A stretch of 64,000 nt of DNA from Leptolyngbya subtilissima AS-A7 (lineage in GTDB: Bacteria > Cyanobacteriota > Cyanobacteriia > Phormidesmidales > Phormidesmidaceae): positions 186,001 to 250,000 of the forward strand of contig NZ_JAMPKY010000011.1 of the NCBI RefSeq assembly GCF_039962255.1, written 5' to 3'. Under the pieces are notes generated by a model. The model was not told the origin of the DNA and ran no database searches. It saw only the letters and a program-made list of their open reading frames with translations. Positions within the stretch are counted from its first letter, which is position 1. The number at the start of each line of letters is the position of its first letter. Positions 9,313 through 54,082 of this stretch are shown here, in pieces. Position numbers and translations under genes: made by a program.

Positions 9313-12300
9313 CTAACCGCCGGTTGCCGGTGGCGGCTGCACCAGCGTGGCGATCGCGCTCACCAGCAGGTCTGGTTCAATGGGTTTGGCTAGGTGCAGC
9401 TGAAAGCCAGCGGCCAGGGCATGCTGCTGATTGATCTCTCCCGCGTAGGCCGTCAGGGCGATCGCAGGAATATTGCCGCCCTGGTCGTGGCGTCTTTTGC
9501 GGATTTGCTGAATCAGCGCGTAGCCATTCATCTCCGGCATGCCGATGTCGCACAGTAGCAGGTCGGGCACAGACTGATTGAGCTGGCCGAGAGCTTGCAG
9601 GGCTGAGGCGGCAACGGCTACCTCGGCCCCCGCCTGGGTGAGAACGAAGGACGCCAACTCCCGCATGTCGGCCTCGTCGTCTACGACTAAGACCTGTAGC
9701 CCGGTTAAGTCGGTCGCTTTTTTTAACGGTTCAGCGGCAGAGGGTTGATCCTGCCCTTCTAGGTTGAGGGGCAGCAGCACCGTAAAGGTCGCGCCCAGGT
9801 TTTGTCCCGGACTGTCGGCCCACACCATCCCGCCGTGCAGTTCGGTGAGCTGGCGCACGATCGCCAGGCCCAAGCCGAGGCCGCCAAACTGTCGGGTGGT
9901 GGTGCCGTCTTCTTGACGGAAATAATCAAATACGTGGGGCAGAAAGTTGGGATGAATGCCTTTGCCGGTGTCTCTCACCTGAATTTGAGCATAGGCGTCA
10001 ACCTGCTCTAGGGTGATGGCGACTTGCCCACCCGCTGGGGTGAACTTGACCGCATTGGAGAGCAGGTTCCAAATCACTTGTTGGAGCCGGTTGGTGTCGC
10101 CTAAAACCTGGCCCGCGATCGCATTCAGCGTGGTTTGAATGCGAATCCGTTTGGCTTCCGCCGCCAGGCGCACGGTTTCAGTCGCCGCTTCAATGGTGGT
10201 GACGAGATTTACTGGGGCTACGGTCAAAGTCAGCTTGCCCTGCAAAATGCGGGAGACATCGAGCAGGTCTTCGATCAGCTGCGCCTGGAGTTTGGCGTTG
10301 CGCTCGATGGTTTCTAGGGCTTGGTCAGTTTTAGCGGCATCCAGCTGTCTGCTGCGCAATATTCTGGCCCAGCCCAAAATCGGATTTAGGGGTGACCTGA
10401 GCTCATGAGACAAGACGGCCAAGAATTCGTCTTTGATGCGGTTGGCGGCTTCGGCTTTGGTGCGATCGCGCTGGGCCGCCTGATAGAGCTGAGCATTTTC
10501 GATCGCCAATGAAGCTCGGTGCGCCAATTCTTCTGCGAGCTGCAAATCTGCGGTGGTGTAGCGGCGGCCCGACTCCGCCGAGATAAACGAGATCACGCCA
10601 ATGATGCGGTCCTGGGTGCGTAGCGGCACCGTCATCACCGAGCTAAAGCCCACCTGTCGCAAAATCTCTAAATGCTCAGGGTCTTTGGCGGCATGGACCA
10701 ACAGCTCATCGGGAATTTCAGGCACCAGGTCGGGTTGCCCAGTGCGCAGGGTCAGGGCGGCACCGCGCTCTGCATTGGTATCTAGGGGATACTTGTCTCG
10801 GATTTGGTGGGCCCATTCTAGCTTGGCCGGGTCAACGTGGGCCACGGCAATTTGGTCGATTGCGCCATTCTCTTCCACGATGTGAACGGTGCACCAGTCG
10901 GCCAATTTCGGTACGGTGAGCTGGGCAACTTTCTCTAGGGTCGTTTGGTAGTCGAGGGAAGAGGCCAGCACGGCGCTCGACTCAGCGAGATACTGCTGGG
11001 CGCGCTCTAGTTTGACGCGCTCTGTGACATCAATAACGTAGGCTAAAAGTCGTTCTACCCGCTGATTTGAATCAACCGTTGGCAAATAGTAAACGTCGTA
11101 ATAGCCGGGGCGGCGATCCTCATGGCCAGGGGCATTGAGGGGCAGGTTGGGCGAAATAAACGGCTGTCCCGTGGCATAGATCTGGCGAATAACCTCGACG
11201 ATGGCGGGGTCAGACGCACCAAATAGGTCTGCAACGGATTTACCCAGGTGATGGTCACGGGGCAACCCATTGATCCCAGCCATGGCGTCGTTGATGGCGA
11301 TAAATTGCTGCTCACCGTCTAAGAGCGCCAGCCCAATTGGGGAGGTGTCAACCAGGGTGGCCAGCTGCTGTTGGGCAGCTTCAGCCTGGGCCCGGGCTAG
11401 CCGTTCCCGCCCGAGCAGTTGTTCTCGCTCCTGCTCGGCTCGCTTACGATCAGTGACATCCATCACCAACGACAGGATAGAGGTCATCCGTCCCGACTCG
11501 TCTTTAAGGCTGGAGTTGTACCACTCGCAGTGAACCACGGCGCGATCTTTGGTGTAGTTGCGGTTGGAGGAAAAAATGTGGGACTCTTCACCGTAAACTA
11601 ACCGGCGGCAGGATTCAGTAACCGGTTCTAGATCGTCTTCATAGACAAGGGGGATCTCGGCTAGCGTTTTGCCCAGCATTTCGTCGGCCCGCCAACCCAG
11701 AATGCGCTCTGCACCCGCCGACCACCGAGTCACGCGAAAGTCTCGGTCCCACTCGATCACCGCCATGGGGGTGTTTTCAACGTGGAAATTGAGCTTCTGC
11801 AGCGCCTGATGCAGGGCCTCCTCTGCTTGCTTGCGCTCGGTAATGTCGATCACCGCTCCGAGCGACTGCTTAGGATGGCCTTGAATATCGTAGGAAAACT
11901 GCCCCCGAACCTCGACCCAGCGAGTGGAACCATCGGGCCAGCGCAGTCGATATTCGTGGTGGTAATCGGTGCGATCTCGAACCGCCTGCTGGAGCTTTGC
12001 CCTGGTCAAGGCTAGATCGTCGGGATGGACGCGATTGGCCCACATTTTGTAGCTCGGCTCGCATTCGTTGGGCTGGTAACCCAGGATGGTGAAATGCCCA
12101 GCCGACCAGCGGATGGTGCCAGTTTGCATGTCCCATTCCCAAGTGCCCATGCGGCCGATATTGAGGGCGAGCTGGAGCCGTGCTTCGCTTTCGCGCAGGT
12201 TCGCTTCGGCCCGCGATCGCTCTACGGCCAGCCAGGTTTTTTCGGCGATGCGCTCCATCAGGGCCACATCGTTTGCCGTCCAGGGGCGGGGTGCCGCATG

Positions 12301-14598
12301 GTGCAGCACCAGTAGGGCAACGAACCGCCCGCGCTTGACCAGGGGCACGCAGAGCAGCGATTGGGTTTCAATGGCGGCAAAAGCCGCCTCGCCAACGCCA
12401 GCGGTGCGGGGGTCGCGAGCGACATCGTCGACCACAACGGTTTTGCCCTGCTTTAACTGGGCAATGATCTCAGCCCCAAACGAATCCATGTGGTGCTTAC
12501 CCACAACACTGATGACGCCGTCGCAGTAGTCGCGATCGACGATCACATGTTCTTGGGCCTGATCAATTTCACCGTAGGCACAGCGCGTGACGTTGAATTG
12601 CTTGCCGGTGGCGTTGACGACCTGCCAAACAATTTCCTCTGGGTCTTGCAGGGTGCGAGCGGCATCGTTCAGTTCAATCAAAAATTTCTGCTGCTGTTCT
12701 TTGCGCTGTAACTCTGCGAGTAGGGCCTCGCGGTTGGCTTCGATTTGCTTGCGCTCGGTAATATTGATTGAAACCCCGGCCATGCGAACAGCTTGCCCAG
12801 ATTCATTGAGATAAATCTGTCCCTGACCCTTGAGCCAGCGCACCTCACCGTCGGGAGCGACCACGCGATATTCTTGGGCAAAAGTCTGGTTTCCCTCCAG
12901 GGCCTCTACGGTCGCTTGCCTGAGCAGTGGACGATCCTCTGGGTGAATGAGGGCCCGAAATGCCTCTGTGGTGCCGACTTGCATGCCCCAAATTTCTTCG
13001 GCATTAGGAGAACACACGACCTGATCCGTTTCTAGATCCACATCCCAGGCCACCATTTGGGCCGATGAGAGGGCTAGCTGTAAGCGTTCTTCGGCCTGCC
13101 GCAGGTTCGCCTCAATCTGCTTGAGACGGGTCACATCCTGAAACATGCCAATGCCGATCGCCGGATGCCCATACATGGCGGGCAATATTTCTCCCCAGCA
13201 AAGGGTGGCCCGCACGCCGTCAGGGGTATGCCAGTTCATCTCATAGTTCTGTAACTGCTCCCCACGGGCAACTAGCACGGCTGGCATTTGTTCAGTGGCA
13301 ATGCGATCGCCCTGAGCATCGGTGCAGTAATAGGCGCTGGCGTATTCCTCTAGAGATTTGTTTTTAGGTAGATCACCGCCGGCTAACTCATTCGCTATTC
13401 GGTTAGCAAAAATCACTTTTGCGGTTTCTGGTTCAATAAAAACGGTCGGCGTTGGCATTGAATCGAGAACGGCTTCTAACCATTTTTGCTGGTTTTCGAG
13501 GTGTTCCGCCTGCTGCCTGAGGAGCTTTTCGGTTTGCTGGCGTTCGGTAATGTCTTGAAACACTACGGCGGCCGCCAAAATTTGCCCTTGCCCATCTAAA
13601 ATTGGGGCGGCATTCACTGTAATTACGGTCCGTTGACCATCGTCCTGGCGAAGCTCCATCTCCTCGTCGGTGACGACTTCGCCGGTTCTCAGCGATCGCG
13701 GCAGGGGAAATTCATGGGGCTCATATTTTTGCCCATCGGGGCGAAACGCTTCAAAGGGAGTGATGGGTACATAGGCTTCTAGTTCGTAGGACTGCTCGTA
13801 GCTACAGCCCAAAATTTGTTTCGCCTGCTCATTGGCTAGGATCAATTTGTTAGACCCGGCCTCAGCAATCAGCACGCCCGCCGGCATCTGCCGCAGCACC
13901 GCTTCAAACTGGGCATGTTCTGTTTCCAAATCGCGGAGCAGTCGCTCCCGTTCTACCTCGGCCTGCTTGCGATCGGTCACATCTCGAAAGTAAACCGCGA
14001 TTCCTTCAGCGGACGGATAGGCTTTGACCTCCAGGCAGCGTTGAAGGGGCTCGCCAAACTCTTCCCAAGCCACCGGAATTTGCTCTGCGATTGCCCGGTG
14101 CATGGCCTCGTAGGCCACCCCACCCACTAGCTCCGGAAAAACGTCGTTCCAAACCTGTTTGCCAATCAAATCTTCAGGGGCTTTGTGCAGAATTTGGGCC
14201 GCGGCCTGGTTGACGTAGGTGTAGTGCCACTGGCGGTCAAAGGCCACAAACGCGTCGGTGATGCTTTCTAAAATAGCTGCGACTTTGTGCTCTGTCGCCT
14301 GCTCGACTGGGCCTGGCGTATGGGCTAACCGCGCTTCTAGCGCCTGGTTCTGCTGCTGTAGCTCAAGTAGTTGGTTTTGCAGCCGTACAACTTGAGCATT
14401 GTCTCCAGGGTCGCAGACAGCATGCTCTGCCTCTAAGCTGCGGGCAAACTGCTCGATTACTTCAGAGCGAGAAGTTTTCTGTTGTTGGGCCGTTTGCTCG
14501 AGCGATCGCCAAGCCGTGTGGGTTAGAGATAGGCTGACTCGATGCTTGGTCTCTCGCTCCCAATTGTTCACAAACTTCCCGCTCGCGTTGCGTTTCAT
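9313..14598 (-). CDS. Giant hybrid sensor histidine kinase (RHH-like segment, about 7 PAS, 2 GAF, HisKA, HATPase, REC)
   Basis: 1,761 residues from the ATG at 14598 (an in-frame ATG at 14634 adds 12). Numbers here count from 14634. Residues 30-70 resemble a ribbon-helix-helix fold (RVSLSLT strand, two helices ending RSEVIEQFARSLE), then a coiled coil (80-105). PAS-like repeats lie near 120-225, 240-368, 385-505, 515-630, 820-935, 945-1065 and 1090-1206, each closing with a DITERKQ-type motif. GAF-like domains lie near 655-805 and 1230-1385. HisKA has His1410 (LSHELRSPLNPIL); HATPase_c has the N box (NLLSNAVKF), RDTGKGI and GGLGLGLAIV; the final REC has Asp1696 and Lys1750. There is no membrane segment, so it senses cytoplasmic ligands. 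All catalytic motifs look intact. No partner regulator is adjacent. Confidence 0.92.
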   Translation of the reverse strand: MKRNASGKFVNNWERETKHRVSLSLTHTAWRSLEQTAQQQKTSRSEVIEQFARSLEAEHAVCDPGDNAQVVRLQNQLLELQQQNQALEARLAHTPGPVEQATEHKVAAILESITDAFVAFDRQWHYTYVNQAAAQILHKAPEDLIGKQVWNDVFPELVGGVAYEAMHRAIAEQIPVAWEEFGEPLQRCLEVKAYPSAEGIAVYFRDVTDRKQAEVERERLLRDLETEHAQFEAVLRQMPAGVLIAEAGSNKLILANEQAKQILGCSYEQSYELEAYVPITPFEAFRPDGQKYEPHEFPLPRSLRTGEVVTDEEMELRQDDGQRTVITVNAAPILDGQGQILAAAVVFQDITERQQTEKLLRQQAEHLENQQKWLEAVLDSMPTPTVFIEPETAKVIFANRIANELAGGDLPKNKSLEEYASAYYCTDAQGDRIATEQMPAVLVARGEQLQNYEMNWHTPDGVRATLCWGEILPAMYGHPAIGIGMFQDVTRLKQIEANLRQAEERLQLALSSAQMVAWDVDLETDQVVCSPNAEEIWGMQVGTTEAFRALIHPEDRPLLRQATVEALEGNQTFAQEYRVVAPDGEVRWLKGQGQIYLNESGQAVRMAGVSINITERKQIEANREALLAELQRKEQQQKFLIELNDAARTLQDPEEIVWQVVNATGKQFNVTRCAYGEIDQAQEHVIVDRDYCDGVISVVGKHHMDSFGAEIIAQLKQGKTVVVDDVARDPRTAGVGEAAFAAIETQSLLCVPLVKRGRFVALLVLHHAAPRPWTANDVALMERIAEKTWLAVERSRAEANLRESEARLQLALNIGRMGTWEWDMQTGTIRWSAGHFTILGYQPNECEPSYKMWANRVHPDDLALTRAKLQQAVRDRTDYHHEYRLRWPDGSTRWVEVRGQFSYDIQGHPKQSLGAVIDITERKQAEEALHQALQKLNFHVENTPMAVIEWDRDFRVTRWSAGAERILGWRADEMLGKTLAEIPLVYEDDLEPVTESCRRLVYGEESHIFSSNRNYTKDRAVVHCEWYNSSLKDESGRMTSILSLVMDVTDRKRAEQEREQLLGRERLARAQAEAAQQQLATLVDTSPIGLALLDGEQQFIAINDAMAGINGLPRDHHLGKSVADLFGASDPAIVEVIRQIYATGQPFISPNLPLNAPGHEDRRPGYYDVYYLPTVDSNQRVERLLAYVIDVTERVKLERAQQYLAESSAVLASSLDYQTTLEKVAQLTVPKLADWCTVHIVEENGAIDQIAVAHVDPAKLEWAHQIRDKYPLDTNAERGAALTLRTGQPDLVPEIPDELLVHAAKDPEHLEILRQVGFSSVMTVPLRTQDRIIGVISFISAESGRRYTTADLQLAEELAHRASLAIENAQLYQAAQRDRTKAEAANRIKDEFLAVLSHELRSPLNPILGWARILRSRQLDAAKTDQALETIERNAKLQAQLIEDLLDVSRILQGKLTLTVAPVNLVTTIEAATETVRLAAEAKRIRIQTTLNAIAGQVLGDTNRLQQVIWNLLSNAVKFTPAGGQVAITLEQVDAYAQIQVRDTGKGIHPNFLPHVFDYFRQEDGTTTRQFGGLGLGLAIVRQLTELHGGMVWADSPGQNLGATFTVLLPLNLEGQDQPSAAEPLKKATDLTGLQVLVVDDEADMRELASFVLTQAGAEVAVAASALQALGQLNQSVPDLLLCDIGMPEMNGYALIQQIRKRRHDQGGNIPAIALTAYAGEINQQHALAAGFQLHLAKPIEPDLLVSAIATLVQPPPATGG

Positions 14599-14710
14599 GG
14601 AGGATGGAGCCGTATACATAAACGGTAAATCCATTCAACCCGACTTTGGCAAGGATATAAATCATCCTTTAGATAGACGTTTAACTTAAAGAGGTTTGCA
14701 CGGGGTTGTA

Positions 14711-15861: not shown

Positions 15862-17280
15862 ATGCCAAAGCTATTGGCTCAGTCTATAGGTGCGCTTCGC
15901 CGCCGTCGGTTTATGCAGCTGGCAGCGGCAGCGGGGATGGCGAGCTTAACCACCTGCCGACCGTCGGCTCGACCTCCTACAGATGGAGCGGCGATCGAGT
16001 CGGGCCAGAATTTTGACTGGCGTCAGTTTGCGGGTAATCAGATCGGGTTGCTACTGGATGATCACCCCTGGACCACGGGCCTACTGCCCTACCTGCCCGA
16101 CTTTGAGGCCCTGACCGGCATCACCCTAAAGCCGCGCACGGTGGCGGAACCAGCCTATTTTGCGGAGATGGAGGCCCTGTTGCGGGCTGACCCTGTGCCG
16201 ATGGATGTCTTCTTTTTACCAATGGATTCCACGGCCTACCGGCTGTGGGAAGACGATCTGCTGCTACCGCTGACGCCGCTGCTCAACAACCCCAAGCTGA
16301 CGGCGGCTAACTACAACCTGTTTGACTTTCCTGAGGGGTTTCGGCTGGCGGCCATGTATCCGCCAGACAGCAGCAGCCCCCAGCTGTTTGGCATTCCCGC
16401 CACCTTTGAGGCGTACATTTTGTTTTACAACAAGCGCCTGGTGAATCAGTTTTTGGCGGGTCAGGTGCCCCAAACTATGGTTGAGCTGGTGCAGGCCGCG
16501 AACCAGATCAACGAGAGCGGGCAGGCTATTGGGGCAGTGATGCGTGGGGTTAAATCGGACGTCATTATCGATACGGTAGCGGGGATTGTGCTCAACGGCT
16601 GGGGAGCCGAGCCCACCCCGCTGCCCTTTAACCTCTGGTTCGACGGCGACTGGCAACAGCCTAGCCTCACCGATCCTCGCATTGTTGAGGGGTTGACCAC
16701 CTACGCCCAGCTGATGCAGGCGGGGCCAGCCAACATCAAACAGATGAACTGGCCCGAGGCTACCCAGCTCTTTCAGGCGGGGAAAGCGGCGTTTTACATC
16801 GATGCCAGTCTGTTTGGGCCTGTCTTTGAGCGGCGTGACACTTCTGCGATCGCCGGTCAGGTGGGCTACACCGTGCTGCCCCGGGTTCACCAACAGAGCC
16901 TGACCGGTCACTGGCTTTGGGGGCTCGGCATTCCCCGGCTGTCTAGTCACCCCCAAGCCGCCTGGCTGTTTATTCAATGGGCCACCAGCCCGGAGATGGA
17001 AGCCAAAATTGCTGTGGCCACGGGTGGGGCACCCCGATTTTCGAGCTGGTTGACGCCGTCGGTCTACACCGAGGCGATCAACTTTGACTATGCTCTAGCC
17101 GTACAGACCGCCATGCAAACCTCGCGCCCGACAGCGGTGCTGCACCCCCGCTGGAACCAGGTTGCCCTGGCGATCGCGGCCACCATTCACGATATCTACG
17201 ATGGGGTAGAGCCAGCCTTGGCCGCCGACCAGCTCCAGTCCACCGTGAGGCAGCTGATGGCGAGTGAGGGCCCGCCATGA
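15862..17280 (+). CDS. Extracellular solute-binding lipoprotein (family 1 type, Tat-like signal)
   Basis: 472 residues from the ATG at 15862 (a GTG at 15859 is adjacent). The N-terminus reads RRRRFMQLAAAAG then SLTTC, a twin-arginine lipoprotein signal. The mature protein has the layout of sugar-type ABC binding proteins: LLPYLPDFEALTGI, MDVFFLPMDSTAY, FGIPATFEAYILFYNKRLV, FQAGKAAFYID, WLWGLGIPRLSSHPQAAWLFIQWATSPEME. It should bind a small ligand outside the cytoplasmic membrane. No permease or ATPase gene is nearby. Instead its stop codon overlaps the start of a membrane GGDEF-EAL receptor (ATGA), so it most likely presents the ligand to that receptor. Confidence 0.88.
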   Translation: MPKLLAQSIGALRRRRFMQLAAAAGMASLTTCRPSARPPTDGAAIESGQNFDWRQFAGNQIGLLLDDHPWTTGLLPYLPDFEALTGITLKPRTVAEPAYFAEMEALLRADPVPMDVFFLPMDSTAYRLWEDDLLLPLTPLLNNPKLTAANYNLFDFPEGFRLAAMYPPDSSSPQLFGIPATFEAYILFYNKRLVNQFLAGQVPQTMVELVQAANQINESGQAIGAVMRGVKSDVIIDTVAGIVLNGWGAEPTPLPFNLWFDGDWQQPSLTDPRIVEGLTTYAQLMQAGPANIKQMNWPEATQLFQAGKAAFYIDASLFGPVFERRDTSAIAGQVGYTVLPRVHQQSLTGHWLWGLGIPRLSSHPQAAWLFIQWATSPEMEAKIAVATGGAPRFSSWLTPSVYTEAINFDYALAVQTAMQTSRPTAVLHPRWNQVALAIAATIHDIYDGVEPALAADQLQSTVRQLMASEGPP

Positions 17281-20189
17281 TCGGTCGTCTGCGGTGGTTT
17301 AGAACCATTCGGGCTCAGCTAATGCTGGGGTTTGGCATTATTTTGCTGCTGCACGGCATCAGCGCCGCCATTGGCTACGGCAGCTTGCAGCGGCTCCGCT
17401 TGCGCAGCCAGGCCACCCTCGACAACGCCGCTCAGCTGCGCGAGCTCAGCCTAGAACTAAAAACCAACTTTTTGCTGGCTCGCCAGGCTGAGGAGGCCTA
17501 TTTTGATACCTGGCAAGGGGGCAACATCGACGCTAATGCCCGGGTGCATGTTCAAACCAACCAGGACTATTTGGCCCAGGCCCGCCAGAACTTAGCCGCT
17601 CTGAGGGAATTGGAAGCCCAAAACCCCGAGCTGGCCGAAGAATTTGCCCTACTGGACTCGCTGTTCGACAACTACGAATCGGCCTTTGAAACTACCACTC
17701 GCCGCATCGCGGAGGATAGCCTGAACCATGAGGTTCACCGACAGCTAAAGGATTTGCTCGCCATCCTACCCGACAGCCAGCGCGCAGAGATCACGACTTT
17801 GCGCATGCTGGTGTGGCAGCTGATGGCTCAGCAGCAGACCTACCTAAATACCCAAGACCCTGCCTATCTCGACGATCTGCAATCGAGTCTAGACCAGCTA
17901 TCTGCCGCCCTAAAGCAGCTACCGTTGGAGTCGTTAGACCCTGAGGCCCGGGCGCTGATGCAAACCTACCGGATCTCCCTCAATGCCCTGCTGTTTCTCG
18001 ATCAGCAGGTGCAGGTCAACCGCATCATTGCGGCCAATATCAACCAGGACATTAACGAGATTATTCAAACCGTTAGCGATCGCTCAGCAGCCCGCGCCGC
18101 TGCGGCCCGCCTAGAGTTAGACAACACTGCCAATCAAAGCAGCGCGGCCCTGCTGGCTACGGCCTTAACGGCCCTGGCCCTGGCGATCTGGGCCAGTGTT
18201 GTGCTGGGGCGGCGGATTATCACCCCCCTAACGCTGATGGCGATCGCCGCCGAGCGCATTGCCCAGCAAGATCTAAGCCAGCCCCTGCAACTCACCGGAG
18301 ACAACGAATTTACGGCGGTGGCTCAAGCGTTTAACCACATGGTGAACCAGCTGCGGCAAACCCTAGACACCCTAGAGCAACGGATCGACGAACGCACTGT
18401 GGCTCTGGCCACCGCGAATCAGACGCTACAGCAGCAAACCTACTCGCTAGAGATTGCTCTGCAAAAACTGCGCCACAGCGAGGCTAACTATCGCCTGCTG
18501 GTCGACCATCTCCACGCTGGGGTGATTGTCCACGCTCCCGACACCACCGTTGTCATGTGCAACCAGATGGCGGTGCAGCTGCTGGGGAGGCCGATGGAAG
18601 ACATGGTGGGCCAGCGGACTGACAATCCCCCCTGGACGATTGTGGATGAAACCGGCGCGGCGTTAACGCTCGATCACTATCCAGTGACGCAGGTGCTCGC
18701 CAGCCAACGCCCTCTGCAAAACCGCGTATTGGGTATCCGTCGCCTCCAGGCCCCAGACTGCACCTGGGTCTTAGTCAATGCATTTCCCACCTTTGACGAT
18801 GCCCAGCAGCTAACCCAGGTGGTGGTGACCTTTATCGACATCAGCGATCGCAAATTGGCTGAAGAAGAACTGCGCCATCAGGCCCTGCACGACGCCCTCA
18901 CCGGCCTACCCAACCGAGCCCTGTTTACTGAGCGATTAGAGCAGGCGGTGCAGCGGTTCAAACGCCACCCCGAGCAGCTGTTTGCGGTTTTGTTCATCGA
19001 CCTAGATCGTTTTAAGGTGATCAACGACAGCCTGGGTCACCTGGTGGGCGATCAGCTGCTGGTGCAAATTGCCCACATTCTGCAACGCCACGTCAGGGCC
19101 AGCGACACGGTCGCCCGCCTGGGGGGCGATGAGTTTGTTATTTTGCTGGAGCAAGTCACCAGCTTGAACGAAGCCATCCAGGTGGTGGAGCGCATTCAGA
19201 GAGATATCAAAGCGCCATTTAGGCTGACGGGCCACACGGTGTTTACCTCTGCCAGCTTGGGCATTACCCTGGCCAGCCCCAACTACATTCGAGGCGAAGA
19301 CATGCTGCGCGATGCGGATAACGCCATGTATCGAGCCAAGGCCCAGGGGCAATCCTCTGGCTACGAAATCTTCAGCCCGGCGATGCACACTAGCGCGATC
19401 GAGCTATTTGAGTTAGAAACCCATCTACGCCAAGCTTTGGAGCGCCAAGACTTCATTCTTCACTATCAGCCCATTGTCAGCCTGCGCGATCGGCAGCTAC
19501 TAGGGTTTGAGGCGCTGGTGCGGTGGGTGCATCCCCAGCGCGGGCTAATTGCCCCCGGCGAATTTATTCCCCTGGCGGAGGAAACGGGGCTGATTATTCC
19601 CTTGAGCCAGTGGATTTTTGAGACCGCCTGCCGCCAGATGGCCGATTGGTGTCACCGGTTCCCAACCGTCGAGGAGCTGAAGATGAATGTGAATGTGGCG
19701 GCGGCGCAGTTTGAGCGGCCCGAATTTTTTGAGCAGATCAAGGCTACTTTGGAGCGAACATCGTTGCCGGCCACCAACTTTGGTTTAGAGGTGACCGAAA
19801 GTCTGCTGCTGCTGAACGTGAAGGGCGTGCTGTCAACACTGTCGAACCTTCAGAAGCAGGGGGTTGATATCAAAATTGATGACTTCGGCACCGGCTATTC
19901 ATCCCTGAGCTATCTCAAACGCTTTCCCATCAATACCCTGAAGATTGACCAGTCGTTTGTTGAAAATATTGATGTTGACCACGACGATGTCAGCATCGTC
20001 AAAGCCATTATTCAAATCGCCAAGTCGCTGGGCATGACCGTGATCGCCGAAGGAGTCGAAACTGAGTTTCAAACCCGCCGACTGGAGCAGTTGGGCTGTG
20101 ACGCTATTCAGGGCTACTGGATTGCGCCGCCGCTGCCCCCCGACCAGGTGGAAGCATTTATTCAGCAGCCTAGCCATAGATCGACCTAA
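17277..20189 (+). CDS. Membrane receptor HAMP-PAS-GGDEF-EAL, bifunctional c-di-GMP enzyme
   Basis: 970 residues. A first membrane helix (about 14-36) leads into a helical periplasmic domain (37-286), which has no Cache-like strands and looks like a four-helix bundle. A second helix (289-311) is followed by HAMP (312-365), a coiled coil, PAS (400-525), GGDEF (530-695; ARLGGDEF at 616-620, with an RASD inhibitory site five residues before) and EAL (710-955; FEALVRW, IDDFGTGYSS, TLKIDQSF, AEGVE all present). Both catalytic domains look active, so the net direction must be set by the input. Translation is coupled to the binding protein through a 4-base overlap, which points to ligand sensing through that protein. 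Confidence 0.93.
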   Translation: MIGRLRWFRTIRAQLMLGFGIILLLHGISAAIGYGSLQRLRLRSQATLDNAAQLRELSLELKTNFLLARQAEEAYFDTWQGGNIDANARVHVQTNQDYLAQARQNLAALRELEAQNPELAEEFALLDSLFDNYESAFETTTRRIAEDSLNHEVHRQLKDLLAILPDSQRAEITTLRMLVWQLMAQQQTYLNTQDPAYLDDLQSSLDQLSAALKQLPLESLDPEARALMQTYRISLNALLFLDQQVQVNRIIAANINQDINEIIQTVSDRSAARAAAARLELDNTANQSSAALLATALTALALAIWASVVLGRRIITPLTLMAIAAERIAQQDLSQPLQLTGDNEFTAVAQAFNHMVNQLRQTLDTLEQRIDERTVALATANQTLQQQTYSLEIALQKLRHSEANYRLLVDHLHAGVIVHAPDTTVVMCNQMAVQLLGRPMEDMVGQRTDNPPWTIVDETGAALTLDHYPVTQVLASQRPLQNRVLGIRRLQAPDCTWVLVNAFPTFDDAQQLTQVVVTFIDISDRKLAEEELRHQALHDALTGLPNRALFTERLEQAVQRFKRHPEQLFAVLFIDLDRFKVINDSLGHLVGDQLLVQIAHILQRHVRASDTVARLGGDEFVILLEQVTSLNEAIQVVERIQRDIKAPFRLTGHTVFTSASLGITLASPNYIRGEDMLRDADNAMYRAKAQGQSSGYEIFSPAMHTSAIELFELETHLRQALERQDFILHYQPIVSLRDRQLLGFEALVRWVHPQRGLIAPGEFIPLAEETGLIIPLSQWIFETACRQMADWCHRFPTVEELKMNVNVAAAQFERPEFFEQIKATLERTSLPATNFGLEVTESLLLLNVKGVLSTLSNLQKQGVDIKIDDFGTGYSSLSYLKRFPINTLKIDQSFVENIDVDHDDVSIVKAIIQIAKSLGMTVIAEGVETEFQTRRLEQLGCDAIQGYWIAPPLPPDQVEAFIQQPSHRST

Positions 20190-20199
20190 ACAGTTGCTA

Positions 20200-20418
20200 T
20201 TCGCAGGGTGGATGGGGCTACCGGTTTCGAGCTGGCCAGCCGCTGGTCCCACGACCTGCGCCTGGCCAGCCGAAAAACTGGATGACATTAGCGCTATCGT
20301 GCTGGTACGCGCTCGCGCTCGCTTTACCGCCTTCCGGGTAGCCGGTCTGATCATCAAGCCCTTTGACCCGTTCACCCTGGCTCAGCAAATTGCTAACCTG
20401 CTCCATTGGGCGCTTTAG
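20200..20418 (+). pseudogene. Remnant of a REC (response regulator) domain
   Basis: The frame ending at the TAG at 20418 reads ...DISAIVLV...FRVAGLIIKPFDPFTLAQQIANLL, which matches the last third of a REC domain and closely resembles the end of the single-REC protein at 1457-1834 (LIKPFDPGLLGGQIESVL). The phospho-acceptor Asp and everything before it is missing, and the frame merges into the 3' end of the receptor gene. It is most likely a decayed REC gene that once followed the binding protein and receptor genes. Confidence 0.55.
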
Positions 20419-20606
20419 AATTGGTCACCAGCTGCATCTTCCGGTTACAACTGGTATAGCCATCGCCCGGACGGTTACGACATTCTGTATAACCCTCAGC
20501 CGCGATCGCTATCTGCCAGTGCGCCAACCCAGTTTTTGCCAGTAGCAGTGACTACTATTCGCGCAGTGGCCAACGCTATCCAGTACGTTTGCCAAGGGTC
20601 TGCTCT

Positions 20607-20814: not shown

Positions 20815-20960
20815 GGTGACGGGGTAAGGGAGTGTTGGGGTGATGGGGTATTGGCAAAGCCTGACCAGAGGACTTAGGGATGACTCGCTCTAACTCCCCC
20901 ACTCCGTTACCCTCCTACTCCATTACTCTCCCACTCTCTTACTCCATCACTTCCCTACTC
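20815..20960. repeat. CTCCCACTC / GGGGTGAT simple-repeat tract
   Basis: The gap between the small + strand gene and the minus-strand thiO-thiG gene holds GGGGTGACGGGG-type units, then units of CTCCCACTC, CTCCTACTC and CTTACTCCAT. The two halves are roughly reverse complements of each other, so the tract can fold into a long imperfect hairpin between two convergent genes. It overlaps the last bases of thiO-thiG. Confidence 0.6.
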
Positions 20961-22937
20961 CGTCACCCGCCCCGTCAGCGGCGAGCTAGCACTGGCTACC
21001 CCCTGCACCGGAATCCGCCCGGCGCGGTAGGCCAGGCGACCGGCGAGGGTAGCTAGCCCCATGGCGCGACCCATGGCAATCGGGTTGACGGCTTTGGCGA
21101 TCGCGGTATTAATCAGCAGCGCATCGGCCCCCATTTCCATGGCTTCGGCGGCTTCGCTAGGGGCGCCAATGCCAGCATCTACTACGACTGGCACCTTGGC
21201 AGTTTCGATGATGATTTGAATATTAGCGGCGTTGCGAATGCCCTGGCCCGAGCCGATGGGTGACCCCAGCGGCATGACAGTGGCGCAGCCCGCCTCTTCT
21301 AACCGCTTAGCCAGCAGCGGGTCGGCGTTGATGTAGGGTAGCACCGCAAAGCCTTCTTTGACCAACTGTTCAGCGGCTTCCAGGGTGCCAATCGGGTCAG
21401 GCAGCAGATACTTGGCATCGGGAATGACTTCGAGCTTGACGAAGTTGTTGTCTTCTTGGCCTAGCAGTTTGGCCATTTCGCGGCCCAGGCGGGCGACCCG
21501 GATGGCTTCCTCGGCGGTTTTGCAACCAGCGGTGTTGGGCAGCATCCAGATCTTTGACCAGTCGAGGGCTTCGGCTAACCCCTGGTGACCGGGGGCGTTG
21601 GTCTGCACCCGCCGCACCGCTACGGTGACAATTTCGCAGCCGCTGGCGGCAATACTCTGGCGCATCACCTCAAAGTCGTCATACTTGCCGGTCCCGGTCA
21701 TCAGCCGAGACGAAAAGGTTCGCCCAGCGATGATCAGGGGTTGGTCGGTCAAGTCGTTTTCTAAGGACATAGCCCCCAATGGGGCGGGGGTAGGCGGGGC
21801 GACATTGGTAAAGGTCATAGCTTGAGGGGTAGGAGAAACAGCGGGAAGGTTAGGAAGGGTTGGCGGGGCGGTGTGGAAGCGCTGCCAAGAGAAGGCATCT
21901 AAGCGCGGGTCTGGCTTGCCCAGCACTGCCTGAGCCACTAGCTGAGCGGTAATGGGGGTGAGCAAAATGCCGTTGCGGTAGTGGCCGGTGGCTAGGGTGA
22001 GGTTGGCGGCGGGGCCAGGGCCAAGGATGGGCCACTCGTCGGGGGTAGCGGGGCGGTATCCCCACCAGGTTTCTTCAAGGGTGAAGTCGGCCAGCAGGGG
22101 CAGCAGGGCGATCGCATTGCCCACCAACTGATGCACTCCGCCCGCCGTATTGTGGGGCGCGAACCCAACGTCCTGGCTAGTGGCCCCCAGCACAATACGA
22201 CCATCCCGGCGGGGCACGATGTAGATGTCTTCGCCAAACAGTACCCGCTGTAGGGGTTGCGGTGTGCCATAGCCGAGGGGCACCCGCAGGCTCGCCATTT
22301 CGCCTTTCTTGGGAAATACCGGTAGGGGTAAGAGTTCGTGGGCCCAGGCTCCGGTAGCCAGCACCACCTGGTCAGCGCTAAAATCGCCTGCTTGGGCTGT
22401 GCAGACCTGCTCAACACGTCCCTGATAGTGGCGTAGGGCGATCGCTCCAGTGCCCTCGTGCAGAGTAACCCCCAGGTCAATCACCGCCGATCGCAGCGCC
22501 TGCACCAGCAGGCGGTTGTCCACCTGGCCTTCATCGGGGTGCCAAAATGCTCCCTGCACATCCCGTCCCAGGCCCGGCTGGTAGTAGGCCAAAGTTGTGG
22601 CATCCAGCCAGCTCTCGGTGGGTAGCTCTGGTGCCGTGCGGCGCGGGGCCAAAATGCCGCAGGGCCAATAGCCCGCCGACTGTCCGGTGAGTGCTTCTAA
22701 TTTATTCACCCAGCTGGGATACAGTGCCAGACTGGCGAGGGCGAGATCGAGCATCGGCCCTGGTGGTAACCCTTCTGCCTGGGGGGCTAGCATACCCGCA
22801 GCGGCGTGGCTGGCAGCCTGCTGAAAGTCGCGGCTGAGCACAGTGACGGTCGCCCCCTGCTGTCGCAGCTCCAGGGCGATCGCCAAGCCAATAACCCCGC
22901 CGCCCACTACCAGGACGTCGCTTCCCTGATTTGCCAT
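20955..22937 (-). CDS. thiO-thiG: Fused glycine oxidase ThiO - thiazole synthase ThiG
   Basis: 660 residues, two enzymes in one chain. Residues 1-345 are ThiO: a dinucleotide-binding [17 protein letters not shown] start, [24 protein letters not shown] and the C-terminal [17 protein letters not shown]. It oxidises glycine to iminoglycine. Residues 395-655 are Thi[19 protein letters not shown], the Schiff-base Lys in [34 protein letters not shown] and [19 protein letters not shown]. ThiG condenses deoxyxylulose 5-phosphate, iminoglycine and ThiS thiocarboxylate into the thiazole of thiamine. The fusion, with a proline/threonine-rich linker (345-395), is known in cyanobacteria and channels the unstable imine. 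No TPP riboswitch was seen upstream. Confidence 0.95.
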
Positions 22938-52707: not shown

Positions 52708-53430
52708 CTACAACACCTTCTCTAAGAACTGCTGGGCACGATCGCTCTTTGGGGCGCTAAAGAATACATCGGGCGGTGCGTCTTCCACCAGGTAGCCACC
52801 GTCGAGAAACAGCACCCGGTTAGCCACCTCGCGGGCAAAGCCCATCTCGTGGGTCACAATCGCCATGGTGATGCCCGTTCTAACCAGTGCCTTCATCACA
52901 TCCAGCACTTCTTTAACCATTTCGGGGTCAAGGGCGCTGGTGGGCTCGTCAAACAGCATCACATCGGGCTCCATGGCCAGGGCGCGGGCGATCGCCACCC
53001 GCTGCTTTTGCCCACCCGACAGCCGCGAGGGATACTGGTCGGCCTTCTCCGAAAGGCCCACTTTGTCTAACAGATCCATGGCAATTTTGCTGGCGTCAGC
53101 CTTCGAGAGCCCCCGCACCTTCATCGGTGCGTAGGTGAGGTTGCCCATCACCGTTTTGTGGGGAAACAGGTTGAAGTGCTGAAACACCATGCCCACGTTC
53201 TGGCGCACCTTAAGAATGTCGCACTTAGGCGACGTGATGTCGACGCCACCGACAAAGATGTGTCCGGCTGTGGGCACCTCTAGTAGATTGATGCAGCGCA
53301 GCAGGGTCGACTTACCCGATCCTGAGGGGCCGATAATGGCTACCACTTCTCCACTGTCTACTTCGGTAGAAATATCCTTCAGCACCTCCAGCGGCCCAAA
53401 GGATTTAACCAAATGTTCGATTCTAATCAC
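52708..53430 (-). CDS. Polar amino acid ABC transporter ATP-binding protein (GlnQ-type)
   Basis: About 240 residues from the GTG at 53430, which has a GGAGG site 10 bases upstream (a TTG at 53451 is also in frame). Walker [14 protein letters not shown], the Q loop FQHFNLFPH, the [15 protein letters not shown] signature, Walker [15 protein letters not shown] and the H loop [10 protein letters not shown] are intact. It energises uptake of a polar amino acid, with the permease gene overlapping its start by 8 bases. Confidence 0.93.
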
Positions 53431-54082
53431 TGCGGCGCATCCTCCGCTCAAGAACGTTAGCAGCCTGGGTCAGCCCCATTACCATGACGTAATAAATTAC
53501 CCCTACCACCAGCAGCGGCTCAAAGTAGAGGAAGGTTTGCCCCGCCACCACCTGGGCCCGCCGCATCAGGTCTAATACTCCAATGGTAGACACCAGGGCC
53601 GAATCTTTTAGTAGCGCAATGGTCTCATTCACCAGGGCGGGCAGAATGTTTTTAAAGGCCTGGGGCAAAATAATGTCGAGCATCATTGGCCTGTATGGCA
53701 CCCCGAGAGACATGGAAGCCTCCCGCTGCCCTTTATCCACTGCCATAATGCCGGCCCGAATGGTCTCAGAACTGTAGGCCGCCGAGTTGAGCGAAAAGGT
53801 AAACACCCCCGCCTCGATCGGCGTAATCTTATAGCCAATTAGCTGGGGGGTGGCAAAGTACACCAGCGCCAGCTGCAAAATCAGCGGCGTACCCCGAAAA
53901 ATTGAGGTGTAAAACTCCGCAAACCACCGCAGCGGCTTGATGTTGGAAATCTTGAGCAGCGATAGCAGAGTGCCTAGGGTAAACCCAAATAGGGCTGACA
54001 GCACCGTGAAGCGCAGGGTAACTAGAATGCCATTCAGGATGAAGGGCAGCGATGGAATAATTTGGCCGAAGTCTAAGTTCAT
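53423..54082 (-). CDS. Polar amino acid ABC transporter permease
   Basis: 219 residues with five membrane helices. It carries the HisM-type signature: [19 protein letters not shown] and the EAA loop [25 protein letters not shown], then [33 protein letters not shown]. Only one permease gene is present, so it probably works as a homodimer. The gene is second of three on the minus strand: binding protein, permease, ATPase. Confidence 0.93.

Follow-up and report, generated by a model that had tools for sequence, protein, structure and literature searches.

Binding proteins that pass a signal to a membrane enzyme of c-di-GMP metabolism are known from the NspS-MbaA system of Vibrio and Sinorhizobium, in which the binding-protein gene overlaps the gene of its GGDEF-EAL partner, by 3 bp in S. 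meliloti and by 16 bp in V. cholerae (PMC9993111). Reports describe signalling through this pair as transport-independent (PMC9993111; a work cited in PMC8967002). Norspermidine-loaded NspS favours the cyclase activity of MbaA, and both characterised MbaA proteins carry an SGDEF motif without an RxxD site (PMC9993111). Receptors with other outputs also rely on binding proteins: TorS is switched by TorT, a binding protein, and the helical bimodular (HBM) receptor CtpL is reported to act via a binding protein (PMC6321045).

Here we describe a cyanobacterial gene pair of this general kind, located in a 64,000-nucleotide stretch of the Leptolyngbya subtilissima AS-A7 genome (hereafter the window). 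A gene for a putative solute-binding lipoprotein of the type-1, carbohydrate-like class (15862-17280, forward strand, ATG start, 472 aa, SBP_bac_1/SBP_bac_8) is followed on the same strand by a receptor gene (17277-20189, 970 aa) that encodes a first transmembrane segment, a helical periplasmic part, a second transmembrane segment and HAMP, PAS, GGDEF and EAL domains. The two genes share an ATGA (17277-17280, forward strand), which supplies both the receptor start codon and the binding-protein stop codon. Open reading frames and Pfam matches thus bear out an earlier sequence-only reading, in which a 472-aa lipoprotein gene shares ATGA with the gene of a HAMP-PAS-GGDEF-EAL membrane protein. That reading had called the two genes "fused by overlap"; the overlap is real, but the reading frames differ and two separate proteins are encoded. 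It had also regarded the arrangement as less familiar, whereas NspS-MbaA had already established this kind (PMC9993111, PMC8967002). Among orthologous loci, the two genes overlap or lie no more than 5 bp apart in 28 of 28 entries examined (about 18 distinct genomes). Most junctions are ATGA and others are TAATG or TGATG; the exceptions are one lineage in which the genes share 10 bp and two in which they are separated by 2 and 5 bp. Promoter and terminator scans gave results at chance level.

The distribution of the two proteins was strictly concordant. Of 145 related genomes, 17 carry the binding protein and the identical 17 carry the receptor's periplasmic part, adjacent in each, while the other 128 contained neither and none was discordant, although these counts come from related genomes and do not represent independent events. 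The adjacency that the sequence-only reading had proposed to look for in sequenced cyanobacteria is therefore present in every carrier among them. Given the tight junctions and the exceptionless co-occurrence, the pairing is beyond chance. At the level of the genus, 13 genomes contain the two proteins together and 15, some of them incomplete, contain neither, which suggests joint gain or loss of the pair. Twelve of 12 loci from another collection also keep the pair (60-92% identity; several are from the same genomes). In a phylum-wide set of 386 genomes, the binding protein occurred in 2, and full-length matches to the receptor N-terminus were confined to those 2; the other receptor matches listed are restricted to the C-terminal portion of the query, for the most part TM2 and HAMP. 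One copy of the pair (L018:9980-14277) lies on a contig labelled Crocosphaera from a metagenome-assembled genome, outside the family, reflecting either transfer or a binning error.

Gene neighbours of the pair vary between lineages, and it is therefore not kept together by a larger conserved block. In relatives such as L009, L011, L012, L014 and L016, the receptor gene is followed by a cluster of about 4 kb that encodes a regulator, a kinase and a second regulator. A deletion scar occupies this position in the window (20190-20420), and fragments of the first and last regulator genes are all that is left in the window and in L020. On the reverse strand, two further genes were described from their sequences alone: one for a 1773-aa sensor histidine kinase (9313-14634), which seems to contain numerous PAS-like repeats, a GAF-like part and, at its C-terminus, a receiver, and one for a 660-aa product (20955-22937) that resembles a glycine oxidase (ThiO-like) joined to a thiazole synthase (ThiG-like).

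By Pfam, the first protein of the pair is a type-1 (MalE-like) solute-binding protein, with matches to SBP_bac_1 (1.3e-23, 84.9 bits, gathering cut-off 26) and SBP_bac_8 (2e-19, 70.9 bits, gathering cut-off 27). Its signal region (residues 1-32; 15862-15957, forward strand) contains a twin-arginine motif at R14 R15 and a lipobox ending in Cys32, all of which are invariant in an alignment of 18 orthologues; we infer from these motifs that the protein is exported by the Tat pathway and lipidated. Its nearest solved relatives bind sorbitol, trehalose/maltose or sulfoquinovosyl-glycerol, and polyamine-binding proteins are not among them. The putative ligand is a small solute, most likely a sugar, a polyol or a sugar derivative. 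Structure prediction was poor for this protein (pLDDT 56). Both genes are under purifying selection: in pairwise comparisons against the window, dN/dS was 0.08-0.19 in the binding protein and 0.12-0.20 in the receptor's periplasmic domain.

The receptor has two hydrophobic segments, at about residues 13-37 and 288-315, and significant Pfam matches to HAMP (3e-13), GGDEF (8e-50) and EAL (2e-76) in addition to PAS. On the forward strand, the HAMP domain (residues 309-361; 18201-18359) is followed by PAS (approximately residues 404-526; 18486-18854), by GGDEF (residues 536-693; 18882-19355) with its GGDEF motif and an RxxD inhibitory site, and by EAL (residues 716-952; 19422-20132) with the motifs EAL, ExTES, DDFGTGYSS and QGY. 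The catalytic motifs of both GGDEF and EAL are intact in the window and in 11 of 12 orthologues (L009-L020), a motif content that marks the receptor as a putative bifunctional diguanylate cyclase/phosphodiesterase. The exception is L010 (11404-13531), in which the receptor gene is broken by a stop after about 190 aa, with loss of the TM2/HAMP part, and the binding-protein gene is intact. At a further locus (G056:C1:6692696-6693646; L119, L105), the open frame of the receptor extends over only about 640 aa and may represent a truncation or a frameshift.

Between the membrane segments lies a periplasmic part of about residues 36-287 (17382-18137, forward strand; boundaries approximate), which the AF2 model predicts to be all-helical, with two probable stacked bundles that resemble those of McpS, TorS and PilJ in Foldseek and VIA-align comparisons. 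The AF2 model of residues 1-375, built on 17 sequences, reached a mean pLDDT of 79 and was helical throughout this region. The natural sensor domains that aligned over both bundles were McpS (Z 15.9), TorS, with or without TorT (Z 12.4-14.7), and PilJ (Z 12.2-12.7), each over 205-225 residues, where a Z near 13 is common by chance for helical bundles. The McpS/TorS-like fold of two stacked four-helix bundles is therefore probable but not proven, because the Foldseek E-values exceed 1e-3 and unrelated bundles reach similar Z, albeit over one bundle only. Searches of the receptor N-terminus against Pfam recovered no known sensor domain, HBM included, and only weak matches to 4HB_MCP_1 and CHASE3; in a PDB sequence search, significant matches were confined to the surroundings of TM2 and HAMP.

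We next consider the origin of the binding protein. A maximum-likelihood tree of 55 sequences places the receptor-linked binding proteins in one clade with support of 100/100, nested among ABC-linked proteins, and binding proteins encoded beside kinases fall into two other groups; deep placements in this tree are unsure owing to long branches. Most relatives beyond the clade, at about 30% identity, adjoin MalFG-type permeases. The closest outside relatives found, which are not included in the tree, share 44-47% identity and come from Shinella, Ensifer and Aminobacter, where they are encoded in operons with two permeases and an ATPase, with SIS, ROK, GntR and choline-dehydrogenase-type genes as neighbours. 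These rhizobial proteins have no lipobox cysteine. The simplest reading is that a carbohydrate-type transport binding protein was recruited once for signalling and apparently gained its lipid anchor, since the closest outside relatives sit in sugar ABC operons and lack the lipobox cysteine, and the receptor-linked proteins form a single clade. About 105 alignment columns are invariant across the receptor-linked and ABC-linked contexts, which is compatible with a similar ligand class in both. The SIS and ROK neighbours of the rhizobial relatives are a weak pointer to a ligand derived from a sugar or an amino sugar, and the operon conserved around these proteins on rhizobial plasmids (L238, L239 and L240) offers a possible route to it.

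The sequence-only reading had found no ABC permease or ATPase within 20 kb of the pair, and this can be extended: with 150 of 211 candidates scored, none was found within 30 kb, the nearest on the contig being about 33 kb past the pair in the downstream direction (window 52936-53983) and about 56 kb away in the upstream direction. No permease adjoins any examined member of the receptor-linked clade. The binding-protein gene consequently does not show the adjacency to cognate permease genes expected of an ABC importer. The same reading had named as a refutation the case that homologues of the lipoprotein mostly sit beside an ABC permease and ATPase. This is true outside the cyanobacterial clade, where the neighbours are MalFG-type permeases, and false inside it, where none was seen among the members examined; the contrast points to recruitment from a transporter and is no argument against signalling. 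Its description of the pair as a transporter-less ligand sensor appears well supported on the genomic side, by exclusive co-occurrence, the permease-free clade and intact GGDEF, I-site and EAL motifs, to which the probable McpS/TorS-like domain may be added.

The lipoprotein might instead be an orphan transport subunit that feeds a distant permease and ATPase, with the receptor sensing something else and the gene overlap only balancing expression. Its fold and its descent from ABC binding proteins would fit such a role, as would the several other MalF-type permeases of the genome (28-34% identity to the rhizobial partner permease), one of which, C9:168807, has no type-1 binding protein listed beside it. 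We nevertheless consider this unlikely, as the lipoprotein is strictly co-inherited with the receptor and with no permease, and the best matching permeases adjoin other binding proteins. Binding proteins that serve both an importer and a receptor are established for chemoreceptors, and a dual role of this kind, in which the lipoprotein supplies a distant importer as well as the receptor and c-di-GMP output reports on transport, would have a parallel in PotD1 and MbaA of Vibrio. Both of these regulate dispersal in V. cholerae (PMC8079147), but none of the genomes examined shows co-inheritance of a permease with the lipoprotein, leaving a dual role only a slim chance. Barely credible, finally, is direct sensing by the receptor domain of a small ligand of its own, with the lipoprotein as a scavenger that buffers or delivers this ligand without docking: McpS, the best fold match, does bind its ligands directly (2yfa, 2yfb), but a scavenger would need neither strict co-inheritance nor gene overlap, and TorS and CtpL are helical domains that also take binding proteins (PMC6321045).

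We therefore favour, with good confidence, a two-protein sensor in which an anchored lipoprotein binds a solute and docks on the receptor to set c-di-GMP levels, the lipoprotein being derived from an ABC system and recruited once. In this model, the Tat pathway would export the lipoprotein, a lipid anchor would hold it at the inner membrane, and it would bind a small solute. Either its liganded or its empty form would then dock on the helical periplasmic domain of a dimeric receptor, in the way that TorT engages TorS; docking is proposed because TorS takes its signal from TorT and CtpL is reported to act via a binding protein. Contact would shift the balance between diguanylate cyclase and phosphodiesterase activity through TM2, HAMP and PAS, as NspS does with MbaA. 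The ancestor of the lipoprotein would have been a solute-binding subunit in a MalFG-type ABC importer.

Relatives of the binding protein are also encoded beside sensor kinases, named here from their sequences and from matches to the window's own kinase. In Spirochaetaceae (L026:523-4870, L027:1-4120 and L041:3200-6654), the gene of such a relative overlaps, through a GTGA-type junction, that of a membrane LytS-like histidine kinase, which in L026 and L027 is followed by a gene for a LytTR-like regulator. In Pseudoalteromonas (L067, L073 and L086) and Thioploca (L082), it lies directly upstream of a hybrid histidine kinase gene, and the periplasmic part of these kinases is different and not obviously helical. 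No sensor domain shared with either group is claimed: profiles of the receptor N-terminus gave no significant match to the spirochaete kinases and matched the Pseudoalteromonas and Thioploca kinases in the HAMP region only. Since relatives overlap or adjoin kinase genes in both spirochaetes and gammaproteobacteria, this binding-protein family seems to have been recruited repeatedly as an exchangeable sensor input. Six other binding-protein regions of the L. subtilissima genome have no GGDEF, EAL or HAMP neighbour. Few of the receptors that set c-di-GMP have a known input, and the pair represents a tractable case: its ligand could be found by screening the soluble binding protein, and the response could be read as c-di-GMP.

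Compared with known systems, the pair most resembles NspS-MbaA, with a binding-protein gene upstream of and overlapping that of a membrane HAMP-GGDEF-EAL receptor and without a transporter. As in MbaA, the receptor combines two transmembrane segments and a periplasmic part with HAMP, GGDEF and EAL; unlike MbaA, it has an added PAS domain and a canonical GGDEF motif with an RxxD I-site. Its partner is of carbohydrate type, in contrast to NspS, which is PotD-like and binds polyamines. BLASTP of the binding protein against E. coli PotD and Shinella NspS gave no significant match and its PotD profile score was negative, whereas the positive control, PotD against Shinella NspS, gave 2e-27. That similarity, together with an overlapping GGDEF-EAL gene and the listing of the genus in PMC9993111, identifies the Shinella pair as NspS-MbaA. 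The receptor resembles Shinella MbaA in GGDEF-EAL only, with no significant sequence match in the periplasmic part. The pair thus probably works like NspS-MbaA but lacks a defining feature of that family, the PotD/NspS similarity, and by sequence stands outside it; the canonical GGDEF with RxxD and the PAS domain are further differences. No published report of such a cyanobacterial pair was found in the open-access literature searched.

TorT-TorS, a sensor of trimethylamine N-oxide, likewise joins a binding protein to an all-helical periplasmic domain of two stacked bundles, a fold that is probable here, but the output of TorS is a histidine kinase instead of GGDEF-EAL. TorT also belongs to another binding-protein family. 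McpS and PilJ provide the best two-bundle fold matches and, with CtpL, a likeness to HBM receptors and the PilJ sensor, yet McpS and CtpL are chemoreceptors and not GGDEF-EAL enzymes, and the receptor has no Pfam HBM match. In XylFII-LytS and LuxP-LuxQ a binding protein drives a membrane sensor, as proposed here, but these have a histidine kinase output and other sensor folds. The sugar ABC operons on Shinella, Ensifer and Aminobacter plasmids encode the closest binding proteins, but as part of a complete transporter and without the lipobox cysteine. Taken together, the pair appears to be an independent counterpart of the Vibrio-type binding-protein/GGDEF-EAL pairs, which suggests that c-di-GMP control by a co-opted transport binding protein is not confined to the NspS-MbaA lineage. 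We lean towards an independent origin outside the polyamine NspS-MbaA lineage, in which a cyanobacterial GGDEF-EAL receptor with a TorS/McpS-like helical domain acquired, in a single event, a carbohydrate-type ABC binding protein that became a lipoprotein; sugars or sugar derivatives outside the cell would then act on c-di-GMP with no transport step.
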